Assembly (NCBI RefSeq): GCF_034932065.1
Contig: NZ_JAYGHP010000003.1
Coordinates: 248,001 to 312,000 of the forward strand
Direction: 5' to 3'
Source: Crocosphaera sp. UHCC 0190
GTDB lineage: Bacteria > Cyanobacteriota > Cyanobacteriia > Cyanobacteriales > Microcystaceae
DNA length: 64,000 nucleotides
The position numbers and the translations under genes were made by a program. Shown here piece after piece: positions 16,276 to 26,137 of this stretch. The first letter of the stretch is position 1. Each line of letters starts with the position of its first letter. The notes under the pieces are model-generated. The model worked only from the letters and a program-made list of their open reading frames with translations. It did no database searches and was not told the origin of the DNA.

Positions 16276-19155
16276 GTGACAGAATCCAAAAGCTACAAGG
16301 ACACCGTTAACCTACCCCAAACTAATTTTAGTATGCGGGCCAATGCCGTGAATCGAGAACCAGAATTACAGCAATTTTGGGCAGAAAATCAGATTTATGA
16401 GAAATTATCCCAAGAAAATCCTGGGGACTTGTTTATTCTGCATGATGGACCTCCTTATGCTAACGGGTCACTCCACATGGGTCACGCATTGAATAAAACC
16501 CTCAAAGACATTATCAATAAATACAAATTATTGCAAGGTCACAAAGTCCGTTATGTACCTGGTTGGGACTGTCACGGACTCCCCATTGAACTCAAAGTTT
16601 TGCAAAGTATGAAGTCTCAAGAAAGGGAGGGTTTAACCCCCATCAAATTACGTCGCAAAGCGCGAGATTTTGCTCTTAAAACTCAACAAGAACAGTGTGA
16701 GGGTTTCAAACGGTTCGGAGTTTGGGGAGACTGGGAAAACCCCTATTTAACCCTCACTCCTGAATACGAAGCGGCCCAAATTGGGGTATTTGGAGAAATG
16801 GCCCTCAAAGGGTATATTTATCGAGGTCTTAAACCTGTTCATTGGAGTCCTAGTTCTCAAACTGCCTTAGCTGAGGCAGAATTAGAATATCCTGAAGGTC
16901 ATACTTCCCGTAGTGTTTTTGCTGCTTTTCCTATTATTAAATCCTCCAAAGAAGCAGAAAAAACTTTAAAACCTTTCTTATCTAATTTAGGGGTTGCTAT
17001 TTGGACAACTACCCCCTGGACATTGCCTGGAAATTTAGCAGTTGCCCTTAATCCTGATCTCACTTATGCTGTAGTAGAACAGACTTCTAAGCTTTGCAAC
17101 TATCAATATTTAATTGTAGCAGCCGATTTAGTGGAGAAGTTATCAGCTACTTTTGAAACATCTTTAAAGGTTAAAGCAACTCTCCCAGGAAAGGATTTAG
17201 AACATACAATTTATCGTCATCCTTTGTTTGATAGAGAGAGTGAAATTCTCATCGGTGGCGATTATGTTACCACAGAATCAGGGACAGGTTTAGTGCATAC
17301 GGCTCCTGGTCATGGACAAGAAGATTATATCGTCGGTCAACGCTATGGTTTGCCAATTTTGTCTCCCGTTGATGCGAAAGGAAACTTTACGGAAGAAGCG
17401 GGACAATTTGCAGGGTTAAATGTTCTCAAAGATGCCAATGAAGTCATTATCAATGAACTGAAAGAAAAGGGAGCATTATTAAAAGAAGAACCCTATCAAC
17501 ATAAATATCCTTATGATTGGCGAACCAAAAAACCGACTATTTTTCGTGCAACAGAACAATGGTTTGCCTCAGTAGAAGGGTTCCGAGATGCAGCATTAAA
17601 AGCGATTAAAACAGTCAATTGGATTCCCTCTCAAGGAGAAAATCGTATTACTCCTATGGTCAGCGATCGCTCAGATTGGTGTATCTCTCGTCAGCGTAGT
17701 TGGGGTGTGCCTATTCCTGTTTTTTATAATGAAGAAACAAACGAACCTTTACTAACCGCAGAAACTATAAATAATGTAAAAAAAATCATTGCAAAAAAAG
17801 GTTCTGATGCTTGGTGGGAGATGTCTGTAGAGGAATTACTACCTAAGAAATACCAGAAAGATGCTCATAAATACCGCAAGGGAACAGATACAATGGATGT
17901 GTGGTTTGATTCTGGTTCTTCTTGGGCCGCAGTAGCAAAACAACGACCGGAATTAAAATATCCTGTTGATATGTATTTAGAAGGAACTGATCAACATCGG
18001 GGATGGTTTCAGTCTAGTTTGTTAACCAGTGTCGCGGTTAATGATATTGCCCCATATAAGACAGTATTGACTCATGGTTTCGTCTTAGATGAAAAAGGAC
18101 GAAAGATGAGTAAATCAGAAGGAAATATCGTTGATCCTCAAATCATTATTAATGGGGGTAAAAATCAGAAACAAGAACCGCCTTATGGGGCAGATGTGTT
18201 ACGATTATGGGTGTCATCGGTAGATTATTCTTCAGATGTTCCCGTTGGACAAACCATCTTGAAGCAATTATCAGATGTTTACCGCAAAATTCGCAATACA
18301 GCGCGATTTTTATTAGGCAACTTACATGATTTTGATCCGAAAAAGCATACAGTTGCTTATGAGGAATTGCCGGAATTAGATCAATATATGTTACATCGCA
18401 TCACCGAAGTTTTCACAGAGGTAACAGATGCGTTTGAAACTTATCAATTCTTCCGTTTCTTCCAAACTGTCCAAAATTTCTGTGTGGTAGATTTATCTAA
18501 TTTCTATCTAGATATTGCCAAAGATAGACTCTATATTTCTCATCCTGAGTCTATCCGTCGTCGCAGTTGTCAAACAGTATTAGCAGTCGCTGTAGAAAGT
18601 TTAGCTAAAGCAATTGCTCCTGTATTATGTCACATGGCCGAAGATATTTGGCAATTCTTACCCTACGAAACCCCTTATAAATCAGTTTTTGAGGCAGGAT
18701 GGGTCAAAACATCAAAACAGTGGGAAAACCCAGACTTAGGGGCTTCCTGGGCAAAATTACGGCAAATTAGAGCAGAAGTCAATAAGGTTCTTGAACAGGC
18801 CAGAAATGAGAAAGCGATCGGGTCATCTTTGGATGCAAAAGTGTTACTTTATGTCTCAGATAAAGACTTGAGAAAACAACTCGAAGCATTCAACCCTGAT
18901 GATAGTTTAACGGGGAATAAAGTGGATGAATTACGCTATTTTGTCTTAGCTTCTCAAGTGGAATTAGTGGATAGTTTAGAAAACCTTAAAAAGGCAGACT
19001 ATCAAAGCGAGTCTGACTTAGTTTCTGTGGGGGTAATAAAAGCAGAAGGAGAGAAGTGCGATCGCTGTTGGAACTATTCTACAAAAGTCGGAGAATTTAA
19101 AGATGATCCGACAATTTGTGAACGGTGTAATGATGCTTTAGTGGGTGAATTTTAG
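16276..19155 (+). CDS. ileS: Isoleucyl-tRNA synthetase
   Basis: 959 aa class I synthetase charging tRNA-Ile. Signature H-M-G-H at 67-70 (preceded by P-P-Y-A-N-G-S-L), the editing domain with [14 protein letters not shown] at 610-614, and a C-terminal zinc finger with Cys928, 931, 948 and 951. The catalytic domain, CP1 editing insertion, anticodon-binding region and zinc ribbon are all present, so this is the bacterial type. The start is GTG 16276 with no strong ribosome binding site; the next Met (Met20, S-M-R-A-N-A-V-N-R) would cut into the conserved N-terminus. A single gene with its own upstream region. Confidence 0.96.
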
Positions 19156-19163
19156 GGACTATT

Positions 19164-19186
19164 AAGGTGCGTTAATAGCGCACCTT
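19164..19186 (+). terminator. Hairpin after ileS
   Basis: Stem AAGGTGCG / CGCACCTT with a 7-nt loop, 9 bp past the ileS stop, followed by TTCCCTTAAT. It could end ileS transcription; the T run is weak. Confidence 0.5.
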
Positions 19187-19240: not shown

Positions 19241-20428
19241 ATGCAAATCACTTCCTTGACTATTAAAAATTATAAGGCTTTTCAAAATATTACTATTAGT
19301 AATATTCCAAGATTTTGTGTATTTGTTGGTGCAAATGGTACAGGGAAAAGTACGCTTTTTGATATCTTTGGTTTTTTAAGAGATTCTCTCAAAAATAATG
19401 TTCGTCAAAGTTTACAACTTAGAGGAGGATTTAAAGAAGTAATTACACGAGGACATGAAGACGAAGAAATTTATTTTGAAATTAAATTTAGGATGGAAAT
19501 TCTTGACAAAGAAAGATTAGTTACCTATGTTCTAGAAATTGGTTTAGAAAATAATAAACCTATAGTAAAAAGAGAAATTCTTCGTTATAAACGTGGTAGT
19601 CAAGGATCTCCTTTTCATTTTCTAGACTTTAAGAATGGTAAAGGTTATGCTATAACAAATGAAGAAGATTTTGATAAAACAGAGGAACAACTAACTCGTG
19701 AAGAACAAACACTTGACGCAAAAGATATTTTAGCGATTAAAGGACTTGGACAATTTCAACGCTTTAAAGCTGCTAGTGCATTTCGACTTTTAATCGAAAA
19801 TTGGCACGTATCTGATTTTCATATCAGTGCTGCTAGAGGTAGTAAAGATGCTGGATATGCAGAACATTTATCCACAACAGGAGATAACTTACCTTTAGTT
19901 GCTCAATATATTTATGAAAATCACAAAGATATTTTTGAGCATATTTTAGAAAAAATGAAGCAAAGAGTTCCTGGAGTTTCTAAAGTAGAAGCAAAAGAAA
20001 CTGACGATGGACGTTTAATTCTAAAGTTTCAAGATGAATCTTTTCATGATCCTTTTATTGCTCGTTATGTTTCTGATGGAACCATTAAAATGTTTGCCTA
20101 CCTTGTTTTATTGCATGATCCGAATCCCCATCCTCTTTTATGTGTCGAAGAACCAGAAAATCAATTATATCCTTTATTATTACAAGAATTAGCTGAAGAA
20201 TTTGAAGCTTATACCCGTTCAGAAGGACAGGTTTTTGTTAGCACTCACTCTCCTGATTTTCTTAATGCTGTTGATTTGAATAATATATTTTGGTTAGAAA
20301 AACATGAAGGAATTACAAAAGTTTATCGTGCTTCTGAACAAGAATTATTAAATAATCTATTTCAAGAAGGAGATCTACCTGGGTATTTATGGAAACAGGG
20401 ACTTTTTGGAGGTATTGATCCAACATGA
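19241..20428 (+). CDS. AAA/ABC-type ATPase of the OLD/RecF-like class
   Basis: 395 aa. Walker A G-A-N-G-T-G-K-S-T at 30-38 follows an N-terminal I-x-N-Y-K-A-F strand; Walker B C-V-E-E-P-E-N-Q-L-Y-P lies near 300-312, then the H-loop F-V-S-T-H-S-P-D-F-L-N. This is the SMC-like single-protein ATPase fold found in OLD, Gabija-type and PARIS-type defence systems. The stop overlaps the start of the next frame by ATGA, which encodes a DUF4276 (TOPRIM-related) protein; such ATPase-DUF4276 pairs recur in bacteria. Here the partner is internally deleted, so the ATPase may be an orphan. The ORF itself is intact. Function as defence is inference. Confidence 0.82.
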   Translation: MQITSLTIKNYKAFQNITISNIPRFCVFVGANGTGKSTLFDIFGFLRDSLKNNVRQSLQLRGGFKEVITRGHEDEEIYFEIKFRMEILDKERLVTYVLEIGLENNKPIVKREILRYKRGSQGSPFHFLDFKNGKGYAITNEEDFDKTEEQLTREEQTLDAKDILAIKGLGQFQRFKAASAFRLLIENWHVSDFHISAARGSKDAGYAEHLSTTGDNLPLVAQYIYENHKDIFEHILEKMKQRVPGVSKVEAKETDDGRLILKFQDESFHDPFIARYVSDGTIKMFAYLVLLHDPNPHPLLCVEEPENQLYPLLLQELAEEFEAYTRSEGQVFVSTHSPDFLNAVDLNNIFWLEKHEGITKVYRASEQELLNNLFQEGDLPGYLWKQGLFGGIDPT

Positions 20429-20652
20429 ACGATGACTATGATTTAGTTTTTTTACTGGAAGAAGCTTCTATGAAAGCACTGTTAGATATTTTGTTACCTA
20501 GAATTATTCCAAAATTGGTTAGTAATTATCAGCAAATAAGTGGTTCAAGAAAAATAGGTCAATATCTAGAAGTGGACAAGTTAGAAAAAAATACATCTCA
20601 CAGCTTTAAGATTTTTATGAAGGGATTGCAGAAAATATTAGCAGAACTGTAG
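20425..20652 (+). pseudogene. DUF4276 (TOPRIM-like) protein with internal deletion
   Basis: 75 aa. The first 30 residues (D-Y-D-L-V-F-L-L-E-E-A-S-M-K-A-L, then L-L-P-R-I-I-P-K-L) match the start of DUF4276 proteins; the rest (S-G-S-R-K-I-G-Q-Y-L, then N-T-S-H-S-F-K-I-F-M-K-G-L) matches their C-terminal end as I remember it. A normal member has roughly 190-220 aa, so about 120 central residues, including the expected D-x-D metal site, have been lost with the frame kept. Overlaps the ATPase gene by 4 bp. Most likely non-functional, though a short protein could still be made. Confidence 0.6.
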
Positions 20653-20669
20653 AAACAGACTTAAAATAT

Positions 20670-21119
20670 CAGACCATTTCTCAACCTTATATTGTGGCTG
20701 CCATGACCGAAGCGGCTGAGATTTCGCCTCAAGATAAGGTGCTAGAAATTGGCACAGGCTCTGGCTATCAAACAGCTATTTTAGGGGAATTAGCCCAAGA
20801 AGTCTATACTATTGAAATCATCCCCGAATTAGCCGAAATAGCGAGTCATATTTTACAAGAGCTTGGCTATCATAATATTCATAGTAAAGTCGATGACGGT
20901 TATCTCGGTTGGGCAGAATATGCGCCTTATGATGCCATTTTAGTGACTGCTGCTCCGCCAAATATTCCCCCTCAATTGAAAGAGCAACTCGCTACAAACG
21001 GGAGGATAATAATTCCCGTTGGTACCTTCTCCCAAGAACTATTAATCCTCAAAAAAACCGTTGATGTATGGGTTCAGCAGTCAATGTTCCCCGTGAGATT
21101 TGTGCCACTGACTCGGTAA
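20670..21119 (+). pseudogene. pcm: Protein-L-isoaspartate O-methyltransferase, N-terminally truncated
   Basis: The frame carries Q-T-I-S-Q-P-Y-I-V-A-A-M-T-E, the SAM motif V-L-E-I-G-T-G-S-G-Y-Q, Y-T-I-E-I-I-P-E-L-A and the C-terminal V-R-F-V-P-L-T-R of Pcm, which methylates damaged isoaspartyl residues. Everything before Q-T-I-S (about 60-80 residues, part of the substrate and SAM site) is missing, and the sequence upstream belongs to the DUF4276 remnant. The only starts are GTG 20694 and ATG 20703, giving 141 or 138 aa. The breakpoint lies at about 20655-20670. Probably inactive as a repair enzyme. Confidence 0.7.
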
Positions 21120-21202: not shown

Positions 21203-22963
21203 ATGGACGATCGCAGAATAGAAGCCCTCAGAATTCGCCGTGATGCTGCTGAAGTTGCTAGTGAACGCCCCCATCCCCTTCATATTAGCAATGGGGAGGA
21301 GTTTCGCTATCGCAACAGTGAGAATAAACCCACCCATCTGGCCAACTATAGCAAAGGATTACCCCATTGCGAAAAAACAGGTGTGATCGTTAATGCTGAG
21401 GACTATCAACAGTTTGTACGGGGTATTGATTCAGGGGATGTGCGTGACTTCCGGGATACTCCCCTAGGCCCACCTAACCAAGATGGAGTACCCTTTCCTA
21501 AATGGCAATCCCACATTGCTCAAACCAGCAAAGGGTGCAAAGTTCCTGTTCGAGCTTGGGAAAGTGCGGGGGCCGGTTCTACCTTTGATTTACAAGGGCC
21601 TGATTCTCAATCTTTGACTATGCCTCCTGCTCCTGAATTGGACAGTGAAGAATTAATCACAGAAATGATTGAAATCTATGGCATGGCTCTTTTAAGAGAT
21701 GTTCCCTTTGCCAATTTTAATAGTTCTACTGAAGTTCAAAAAGTTGTTGATTTACTTAACCAGTCTCCTTGGATTAAAAATCAAGCCACTAATTACATTC
21801 ATTTAACCGATGCTGAGCAAAAACGGTTACGGGGCCCCTTTACCAAGCAAACAGTATTCCGAGGTATTGCACCTGGGGATAATGTAGGGCCATACTTATC
21901 TCAATTTCTTTTAGTCGGAAATCAAGGACTAGAAAATATACAGTCTCTCAGTGATGGCTATATTGCCTATGGTGCTATCCGCGTCGATCAACGAATACGG
22001 GTAGCTGAACCTCTAAAAGATTATATGACAACTTGGGAAGCTTGGGTGGATGTCCAAAATGGGGCAGATTTACGAGGCATAGAAACTTATTCTGAAACGC
22101 CCGCCCCTTATCGTTTTATGGCTACACCCCGTGATTTAGCCACCTACGTCCATTATGATGCTCTCTATGAAGCCTATTTGAATGCTTGTTTAATCATGTT
22201 GGGGCTAAAAATTCCCTTTGATCCCGGTATTCCCTTCCAAGGGGCTGATTTTAAGGATAAACAACAAGGGTTTGCTCAATTTGGTGGCCCTCATATCCTG
22301 TCTTTAGTAACAGAAGTGGCAACCCGCGCCCTCAAAGCGGTACGTTTCCAGAAGTTTAATGTCCATCGTCGTCTGCGGCCTGAAGCTGTTAGCGGTTGGG
22401 TGACACGGTATGTTAATGATGATACCAAAGGCATTGAAGCCATTAAACCCCTAGTAGATGGTTTAGGGGAAGGTCTTTTGAAGGCAGTGGCTGACCATAA
22501 CTGCAAACAAAACCAGAAATTTAGCGATCGCACCAGTGATGCTAATAATTGTTACAAGGCTTCTTATTTGCTGCCTATGGCTTTTCCTGAAGGTTCCCCC
22601 ATGCACCCGGCTTATGGTGCGGGTCATGCCACCGTTGCGGGTGCTTGTGTTACCATTCTCAAGGCATTTTTTGATGCGGGTGCTACCTTAAATTTTGCTT
22701 TTCAACCTAGTGCCGATGGTAGTAAATTAGAACCCGTGACCTTAGATAAACCTTTAACAGTTGAAGGGGAATTAAACAAAATCGCCGCAAATATTGCTAT
22801 TGGACGGAATTGGGCCGGGGTTCACTACTTCACAGATTATATTGAATCTCTCCGTCTTGGGGAACAAGTTGCGATCGGTATTCTCCAAGAACAAAAGTTA
22901 ACCTATGGGGAAAACTTTTCCATGACAATTCCTCTGTTTGATGGGGGCAGTATTCGCATCTAA
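21203..22963 (+). CDS. Vanadium-dependent haloperoxidase (algal bromoperoxidase type)
   Basis: 586 aa, close to the algal enzymes. The vanadate pocket can be traced: Lys384 and Arg392 (K-F-N-V-H-R-R-L-R-P-E), His468 (M-H-P-A-Y-G-A-G-H), Gly474, Arg535 and His541 (G-R-N-W-A-G-V-H-Y-F). The position equal to Ser483 of the Corallina enzyme is Ala473. It uses H2O2 to oxidise bromide or iodide to hypohalite, removing peroxide and halogenating organics. No signal peptide is evident. AGGAG stands 7 nt before ATG 21203. It is a single gene with a strong terminator, directly after the degraded pcm. Bromide versus chloride preference cannot be told from sequence. Confidence 0.88.
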   Translation: MDDRRIEALRIRRDAAEVASERPHPLHISNGEEFRYRNSENKPTHLANYSKGLPHCEKTGVIVNAEDYQQFVRGIDSGDVRDFRDTPLGPPNQDGVPFPKWQSHIAQTSKGCKVPVRAWESAGAGSTFDLQGPDSQSLTMPPAPELDSEELITEMIEIYGMALLRDVPFANFNSSTEVQKVVDLLNQSPWIKNQATNYIHLTDAEQKRLRGPFTKQTVFRGIAPGDNVGPYLSQFLLVGNQGLENIQSLSDGYIAYGAIRVDQRIRVAEPLKDYMTTWEAWVDVQNGADLRGIETYSETPAPYRFMATPRDLATYVHYDALYEAYLNACLIMLGLKIPFDPGIPFQGADFKDKQQGFAQFGGPHILSLVTEVATRALKAVRFQKFNVHRRLRPEAVSGWVTRYVNDDTKGIEAIKPLVDGLGEGLLKAVADHNCKQNQKFSDRTSDANNCYKASYLLPMAFPEGSPMHPAYGAGHATVAGACVTILKAFFDAGATLNFAFQPSADGSKLEPVTLDKPLTVEGELNKIAANIAIGRNWAGVHYFTDYIESLRLGEQVAIGILQEQKLTYGENFSMTIPLFDGGSIRI

Positions 22964-25349: not shown

Positions 25350-25637
25350 ATGGCTAATGTGAATCATTCAAAACAAATGGCCAGACTTGAGGCTCGTATC
25401 ACCCCAGAAACTAAAGCTCTCTTTCAGAAAGCTGCAAATCTGGAAGGGCGTACTTTGACAGATTTTGTTGTTGCAAGTGTTCAAGCAGAAGCTAGTCGAG
25501 TCATTCAGAAACACCAAACACTTAAGCTGAGTGTTGAGGATAGCGAAGCTTTTGTCGATGCACTCCTTAATCCTCCAAAGCCTAATGATTCTCTGAAATC
25601 AGCCGCTATACGCTATAAGCAAGTAATGTCAGATTGA
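25350..25637 (+). CDS. DUF1778 antitoxin (TacA/AtaR-like)
   Basis: 95 aa. The N-terminal ribbon-helix-helix (about 8-50: M-A-R-L-E-A-R-I-T-P-E-T-K-A-L-F, then L-T-D-F-V-V-A-S-V) binds DNA as a dimer; the C-terminal tail (S-E-A-F-V-D-A-L-L-N-P-P-K-P-N) wraps the GNAT toxin in known pairs. It starts 41 bp after the -10 element; the stop TGA shares its A with the toxin ATG (25637). It should repress its own operon through the palindrome in the promoter. The class assignment is firm. Confidence 0.9.
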   Translation: MANVNHSKQMARLEARITPETKALFQKAANLEGRTLTDFVVASVQAEASRVIQKHQTLKLSVEDSEAFVDALLNPPKPNDSLKSAAIRYKQVMSD

Positions 25638-26137
25638 TGGTTGTAAGGATCGAGCCGCTTAATGCTCGTAAGCATATTCGTAAAGGGTTTTCCTGTGGAA
25701 AGGATAGCTTAGACAATTACATACGTCAGCAGGCATCTCAAGATCTCAAAAAGCGAGTTACAACTGTGTTCGTTTTATTTGATGAGCCTAATTTTAACAT
25801 ATTGGCATATTACACGCTCTCTTCATTCACTCTTGATATTACAGATCTAGACGAAGCTTTTGCAAAACGCCTGCCCCGTTACCCACGATTGCCAGCTACA
25901 CTGTTGGGTCGTTTAGCTGTAGATTATAAACATAAGGGCAAGGGATTCGGGGAGTTGATGTTGTTGGATGCTCTTAAAAAGTCGCTGGATGTCTCTAAAC
26001 AAGTGGCCTCTCTAGCTGTGATAGCTGAAGCTTTAGATGAGCAAGCCTTAAATTTCTATAAAAAGTATGGCTTTCAACAATTTAAGCAAAATCCTATTAA
26101 GCTATACTTTCCAATGAAATCTATTGAAGAACTATGA
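25637..26137 (+). CDS. GNAT-family acetyltransferase toxin (TacT/AtaT-like)
   Basis: 166 aa. GNAT fold with the acetyl-CoA loop R-L-A-V-D-Y-K-H-K-G-K-G-F-G-E near 93-107 and the conserved late Tyr in F-Y-K-K-Y-G-F. N-terminal F-S-C-G-K-D-S-L-D-N-Y-I is typical of toxins that acetylate aminoacyl-tRNA and stop translation. ATG 25637 overlaps the antitoxin stop; a TTG at 25634 is the alternative. The stop overlaps (ATGA) the start of a truncated BrnA-like frame. It is intact, so the module is probably active. Confidence 0.9.
   Translation: MVVRIEPLNARKHIRKGFSCGKDSLDNYIRQQASQDLKKRVTTVFVLFDEPNFNILAYYTLSSFTLDITDLDEAFAKRLPRYPRLPATLLGRLAVDYKHKGKGFGELMLLDALKKSLDVSKQVASLAVIAEALDEQALNFYKKYGFQQFKQNPIKLYFPMKSIEEL

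Follow-up and report, generated by a model that had tools for sequence, protein, structure and literature searches.

The analyzed stretch of DNA (64,000 nucleotides, hereafter the window) comes from a cyanobacterial draft genome of 4.43 Mb in 38 contigs and harbors a broken, incomplete member of HEC-01, a candidate defence system of PADLOC. The ATPase gene of this two-gene module is intact, and its DUF4276 partner gene has lost the core to an internal deletion. Loss of the partner with the ATPase retained recurs in 14 of the 64 cyanobacterial modules surveyed. The locus is probably best explained as an inactivated HEC-01 that lost its nuclease before its ATPase, an order that would follow from a restraint of the nuclease by the ATPase. 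A second rearrangement then placed a stub of the pcm gene against the module.

All features considered here lie on the forward strand. The conserved gene ileS (16276..19155) is separated from the module by a terminator-like inverted repeat, AAGGTGCG-N7-CGCACCTT (19164..19186), which was seen by eye and is predicted only. The ATPase gene (19241..20428) encodes 395 aa with zero internal stops, matches AAA_21 of Pfam at E 2.9e-30, and retains the stretches GANGTGKST, EEPENQLYP, and STHSPDF (found by sequence inspection), which we take to be the P-loop, Walker B, and H-loop regions. It matches the HEC-01 ATPase model PDLC04144 of PADLOC over positions 1-394 of 395 (1.2e-204, 677.9 bits). The ATG of the next frame (20425..20652) overlaps the ATPase stop. 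This frame encodes 75 aa. When aligned with an intact 190-aa homologue, its two ends fall on residues 1-32 (78%) and 147-189 (72%), so that residues 30-146 of 190 (~117 codons, ~351 bp) have been deleted in frame. The join, placed by alignment at 20509..20515, lies near 20512; because the sequence there is rich in A, the deletion point can be fixed only to within a few bases. Profile searches of Pfam and NCBIfam gave no name for the remnant; PDLC04143 of PADLOC matches it in two stretches (6.3e-15, 53.3 bits), excluding a chance likeness to the partner. The original prediction of an intact ATPase followed by a partner retaining only its two ends in frame is thus upheld.

The intact partner from Crocosphaera sp. 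MO_202.B2 (L067) was modelled with 27 homologues (pLDDT 93.3, pTM 0.88). Among the Foldseek candidates, its best structural match was 6nk8_B, a TOPRIM region of OLD (Z 11.6, rmsd 4.0, 169 aligned); the match to 6njv had Z 11.1, and the OLD TOPRIM regions spanned Z 11.6 to 10.7, with Foldseek E-values of 1.3e-4 to 2.3e-3 for the OLD rows. Lower matches included Thermus OLD (Z 9.5), the uncharacterised Pyrococcus protein 2p62 (Z 9.2), and lumazine synthases (from 8.2). The intact partner is accordingly predicted to have a TOPRIM fold of the OLD C-terminal type. The remnant keeps two of the 16 columns invariant in 28 homologues (both Ser), the other 14 being inside the deletion gap. The residues D67, D69, E100, E102, and D108, presumably catalytic, all fall within the deleted part, leaving the window protein without the acidic core. 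The model of the remnant (pLDDT 64.1, pTM 0.37) features helices only, without the TOPRIM sheet; judging from the loss of the core, the remnant would be nuclease-dead.

The intact partner from G017 is recognized by PADLOC as HEC-01 (231.6 bits), and the Pfam families of the pair are AAA_21 for the ATPase and DUF4276 for the intact partner. The window module resembles HEC-01 in the nearly complete ATPase match (394 of 395 positions) and in having intact relatives with a full partner; it differs in that the ATPase adjoins the 75-aa remnant without the core instead of a full-length DUF4276 protein. The HEC names reportedly originate from a preprint. As given in the available text of PMC12988326, HEC stands for Hma-embedded candidate, and other HECs have been experimentally tested. 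In the available parts of the literature searched, the relevant mention of HEC-01 is an entry among the systems found, with nothing further, and DUF4276 was not found in that literature. A comparable two-gene plan, with an ATPase sensor and a separate TOPRIM effector, is described for PARIS, where AriA sequesters the TOPRIM tRNase AriB until triggered by a phage protein (PMC12409363, available text). Membership in PARIS was rejected, since the AriA model scores 96.5 bits on the window ATPase vs. 677.9 for HEC-01; the partner also differs in its Pfam family, DUF4276. The predicted TOPRIM fold of the intact partner is shared with the OLD family nucleases, i.e., the single-gene OLD, GajA, and the retron Eco8 effector (PMC10568477, available text), whereas the ATPase and TOPRIM parts of HEC-01 reside on separate genes. 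By its anatomy and the predicted fold, HEC-01 looks like an OLD nuclease split over two genes.

The position of the module is shared with relatives. Matches to ileS were found in 49 of 50 genomes of the family, and the best 30 loci were examined. In six of them (the window genome G000, G012, G017, G029, G060, i.e., Crocosphaera MO_192.B18 with the locus L066, and G062, i.e., Crocosphaera MO_133.B10 with the locus L095), the module or its remains are situated on the 3' side of ileS, the likeness to the module starting 34-180 bp past the last ileS codon. Intact pairs directly after ileS occur only in G029 and G060 among the six; the different decay at the same site in G012, G017, and G062 counts for the decay reading. 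In G012, the partner is interrupted by a 93-bp insert with inverted ends (L010:953-1045, minus strand). The insert, to which the G012 genome has nine matches, five of them identical and one partial, is a small, recently active mobile element. In G017, at most the final 57 codons of the ATPase remain, behind a new ATG (L028:1516-1677), and this remnant still overlaps the start of an intact DUF4276 gene; in G062, the ATPase is broken and the partner is absent. As to the other 24 loci, 22 have other ORFs of at least 70 aa after ileS and two have none, these ORFs including what we take to be a DNA-methyltransferase-like gene and a VapC-like gene. The 3' side of ileS is a variable site, with the gene content differing widely over the 30 loci (L098-L127). 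The window module shares this site with relatives in two other genera and presumably reached it before these genera split.

Decay of the module was surveyed with both genes as queries in three overlapping sets, one of 58 relatives, one of 386 genomes from the phylum, and one of 388 from the order, at thresholds of E 1e-100 for the ATPase and 1e-25 for the partner, so each one-sided class was found through its surviving gene. The total of 64 modules comprises 60 ATPase matches in 56 genomes, G017, G602, and G627 obtained with the partner search, and G062 obtained with the ileS and contig searches. By open frame, 40 of the modules have both genes intact. The ATPase is intact and the partner broken or gone in 14 (G000, G012, G056a, G066, G067, G069, G207, G300, G342, G444, G447, G544b, G585, and G650), the ATPase match of G544b reaching residue 389 of 395. 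The reverse, an open partner with the ATPase broken or gone, is found in four (G017, G065, G068b, and G602), and both genes are broken in three (G062, G064, and G148b). Three unclear cases were kept outside the test: G472 at a contig edge, G063, where only the last part of the partner is lost, and G627, where the partner lacks its 5' end and the ATPase side is off the contig. The lesions are of varied kinds, i.e., stops, a one-base shift, an insert, deletions, and complete loss.

Were lesions distributed in proportion to gene length, the ATPase, which is twice as long, would receive a share of 0.675 (67% of single-gene lesions expected). It carries four of the 18 single-gene lesions (P(4 or fewer) = 1.1e-4, assuming independent lesions and equal detection). 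In the first eight modules, where the idea arose, the partner was lost in 7 vs. 1 (P = 0.0022), and in the ten modules found after it, in 7 vs. 3 (P = 0.017). Sequencing errors should scale with length, so the opposite bias would be expected from them. The partner ATG reads AGG in G027, G068b, and G069 of the genus g7 (L016, L209, and L142, respectively), the last also having a stop. In the open-frame tally, G027 is listed with the intact pairs and G068b with the partner-only modules; with strict start codons, G027 becomes ATPase-only and G068b broken in both genes, changing the counts to 15 vs. 3. Distant pairs (~40% identity) were left out; in G002:C17, G037:C4, and G022:C95, the partners look cut with the ATPase present. 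Outside the cyanobacteria, 26 of 29 loci (L068-L094, L096, and L097), seeded by ATPase patterns and kept outside the lesion test, are intact pairs by open frame; L087 has a frameshift in the partner only, L096 is broken in both genes, and L094 is cut by the contig end.

The order of loss fits a PARIS-like restraint of the nuclease by the ATPase. By analogy with AriA and AriB, the ATPase of a complete pair would act as the infection sensor and keep the TOPRIM nuclease inactive until needed. The in-frame deletion of about 351 bp removed the TOPRIM core, a second rearrangement set a pcm gene lacking its 5' third next to the module on the downstream side, and the module would now be switched off. 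Loss of the partner would be harmless or a relief, and loss of the ATPase first would free or strand the nuclease; relief from the cost of the nuclease may therefore drive the partner-first loss. The decay of toxin–antitoxin pairs fits the same loss order. At the same time, three or four modules lost the ATPase instead (G017, G065, and G602, with G068b added when judged by open frame), so DUF4276 on its own can at times be tolerated, and the partner-first rule is not absolute. The original prediction of a decaying two-gene ATPase/TOPRIM candidate defence module is borne out by the HEC-01 match and the core deletion; its description as a loss caught midway proved too simple, as the state with the partner lost and the ATPase kept is recurrent. 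Isolated broken defence genes are frequent; in the present case, one module is broken again and again, mostly in the shorter effector gene. Read from sequence only, the loss order points to the costly half and to the half that may restrain it, and the mechanism proposed for this uncharacterised candidate system becomes directly testable. Among the titles listed for loss or pseudogenes of defence effectors, none bore on this point, and no novelty is claimed for the partner-first loss.

Certain features of the remnant speak against simple inactivation: its 75-aa frame is open, the overlap of its start with the ATPase is kept, the deletion is in frame, and a second independent in-frame deletion of the DUF4276 core exists in G585 (L207:1258-1542; 94 aa, both ends kept, ATPase intact upstream). 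The core-less partner might then be a working mini-protein, which would keep the contacts with the ATPase without the nuclease center and act as a regulator, an ATPase plug, or a safeguard from related modules. The retention of both ends in these two unrelated lineages agrees with this, as do the in-frame join of ATPase residues 1-324 to DUF4276 residues 122-185 in G148b (L152; one 385-aa open frame) and the dN/dS of 0.12 for the kept partner pieces of G000 vs. G012 (both partners broken). However, the remnant folds without confidence in the model described above, the internal deletion of the G650 partner is out of frame, and G012 and G056a have lost the C-terminal end kept by G000 and G585, so that no part is always retained. 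Within the 64 kept partner codons, the unique changes of G000 are 5 nonsynonymous and 2 synonymous vs. 6 and 17 in its own ATPase; the same codons of intact partners show 3 and 0 in G060 and 5 and 5 in G029, all being small numbers. Overall, a working mini-protein appears unlikely, and it is quite improbable that the core-less DUF4276 represents a recurrent second state of HEC-01, in which in-frame removal of the nuclease center makes the effector a small partner that still binds and regulates the ATPase, the ATPase itself remaining fully selected as a sensor or for protection from related modules. An excess of in-frame deletions, considered as a sign of selection, is not apparent: those of G000, G585, and G148b are in frame, that of G650 is not, and the G300 partner also carries a stop codon. 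In G056a (L012), the C-terminus of the partner is replaced by a stretch with the palindrome AGAGACGTAATATATTACGTCTCT, perhaps another small element.

A function of the ATPase on its own, with the loss of the partner representing reduction to a one-gene system and not decay, is rather unlikely. It would accord with the number of ATPase-only modules and with G342, where the partner has vanished completely and the tip omega of the ATPase is 0.050 vs. 0.041 in the partner-intact sister. In the group of G000, G012, G029, and G060, the ATPase has an NG86 dN/dS of 0.070-0.084 in all six pairs, and its three-point tip omega is 0.112 for G000. Relaxed selection on the lone ATPase was not found: pooled over seven of the 14 lineages with a broken partner, the tip omega is 0.078, vs. 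0.086 over seven partner-intact ones, estimates that include one intact tip with a negative dS and two very short tips. The low omega after partner loss fits both a recent loss and a retained function. Against the one-gene system stand the 40 intact pairs among the 64 modules and the recent look of the G012 insert, owing to which the low omega may stem from selection that preceded the loss. Inactivation of HEC-01 remains the preferred reading.

The downstream edge of the module was affected by the second rearrangement. The likeness to the DUF4276 3'-end of L066 extends to ~20665, and the likeness to pcm (protein-L-isoaspartate O-methyltransferase) begins at QTISQPY (20670) in the alignment with four intact pcm proteins, placing the junction at 20661..20670. 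The positions of the two joins proposed originally are corrected to 20509-20515 for the first and ~20661-20670 for the second. The pcm fragment (20670..21119) lacks the 5' third, in line with the earlier description of a pcm beginning at Q-T-I-S without an N-terminus: the four intact homologues have 81-103 residues ahead of this point. It matches the family profiles, i.e., PF01135 (20655-21116, 6.7e-46, from profile position 54), TIGR00080 (166.5 bits, above the cut-off), and NF001453 (186.3 bits, just below the cut-off of 188). Its frame contains no ATG, GTG, or TTG from the stop at 20607 to the GTG at 20694, the first possible start (141 aa), and differs from the 75-aa frame, so there is no DUF4276-pcm fusion protein.

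The abutment of the pcm stub on the module had suggested an insertion of the module into or next to pcm that disrupted this gene. This is extremely improbable, as ileS is followed by the module or what is left of it also in G012, G017, and G029, which have no pcm match at E 1e-15 (of the six loci, the pcm search covered these and G000); the place after ileS is common to relatives and pcm is not. Moreover, the search of the window genome for another pcm, proposed as a check, revealed neither the pcm 5' part (best E 0.318, 31% identity) nor a second strong pcm. The eight other PF01135 matches in the genome, all above the curated cut-off, reach only 22.9-30.6 bits, cover profile parts between 39 and 171, and were taken as other methyltransferases. 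Most likely, a deletion or translocation later brought the stub up to the downstream end of the module, and the genome thereby probably lost its only pcm, a minor point beside the fate of the module. An assembly error at one or both joins, conceivable in a draft of 38 contigs, is very improbable, since both joins are inside a 407-kb contig and relatives, including the 4-contig genome G012, show other lesions at the same site.

The pcm gene is sporadic (a match at E 1e-15 in five of the 58 genomes searched, including the window genome). In the window, the pcm fragment is followed, outside the module, by a PAP2-like gene (21203..22963, 586 aa; E 0.012, below the curated cut-off), presumably encoding a vanadium haloperoxidase. 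Five further genomes among these 58 match this gene at E 1e-30, none with a pcm match, and no PAP2-like gene was seen within the 1.5 kb flanking each of the other four pcm loci. Further downstream, the window harbors a pair of a TacA-like antitoxin and a GNAT acetyltransferase (25350-26137), likely a toxin–antitoxin module.
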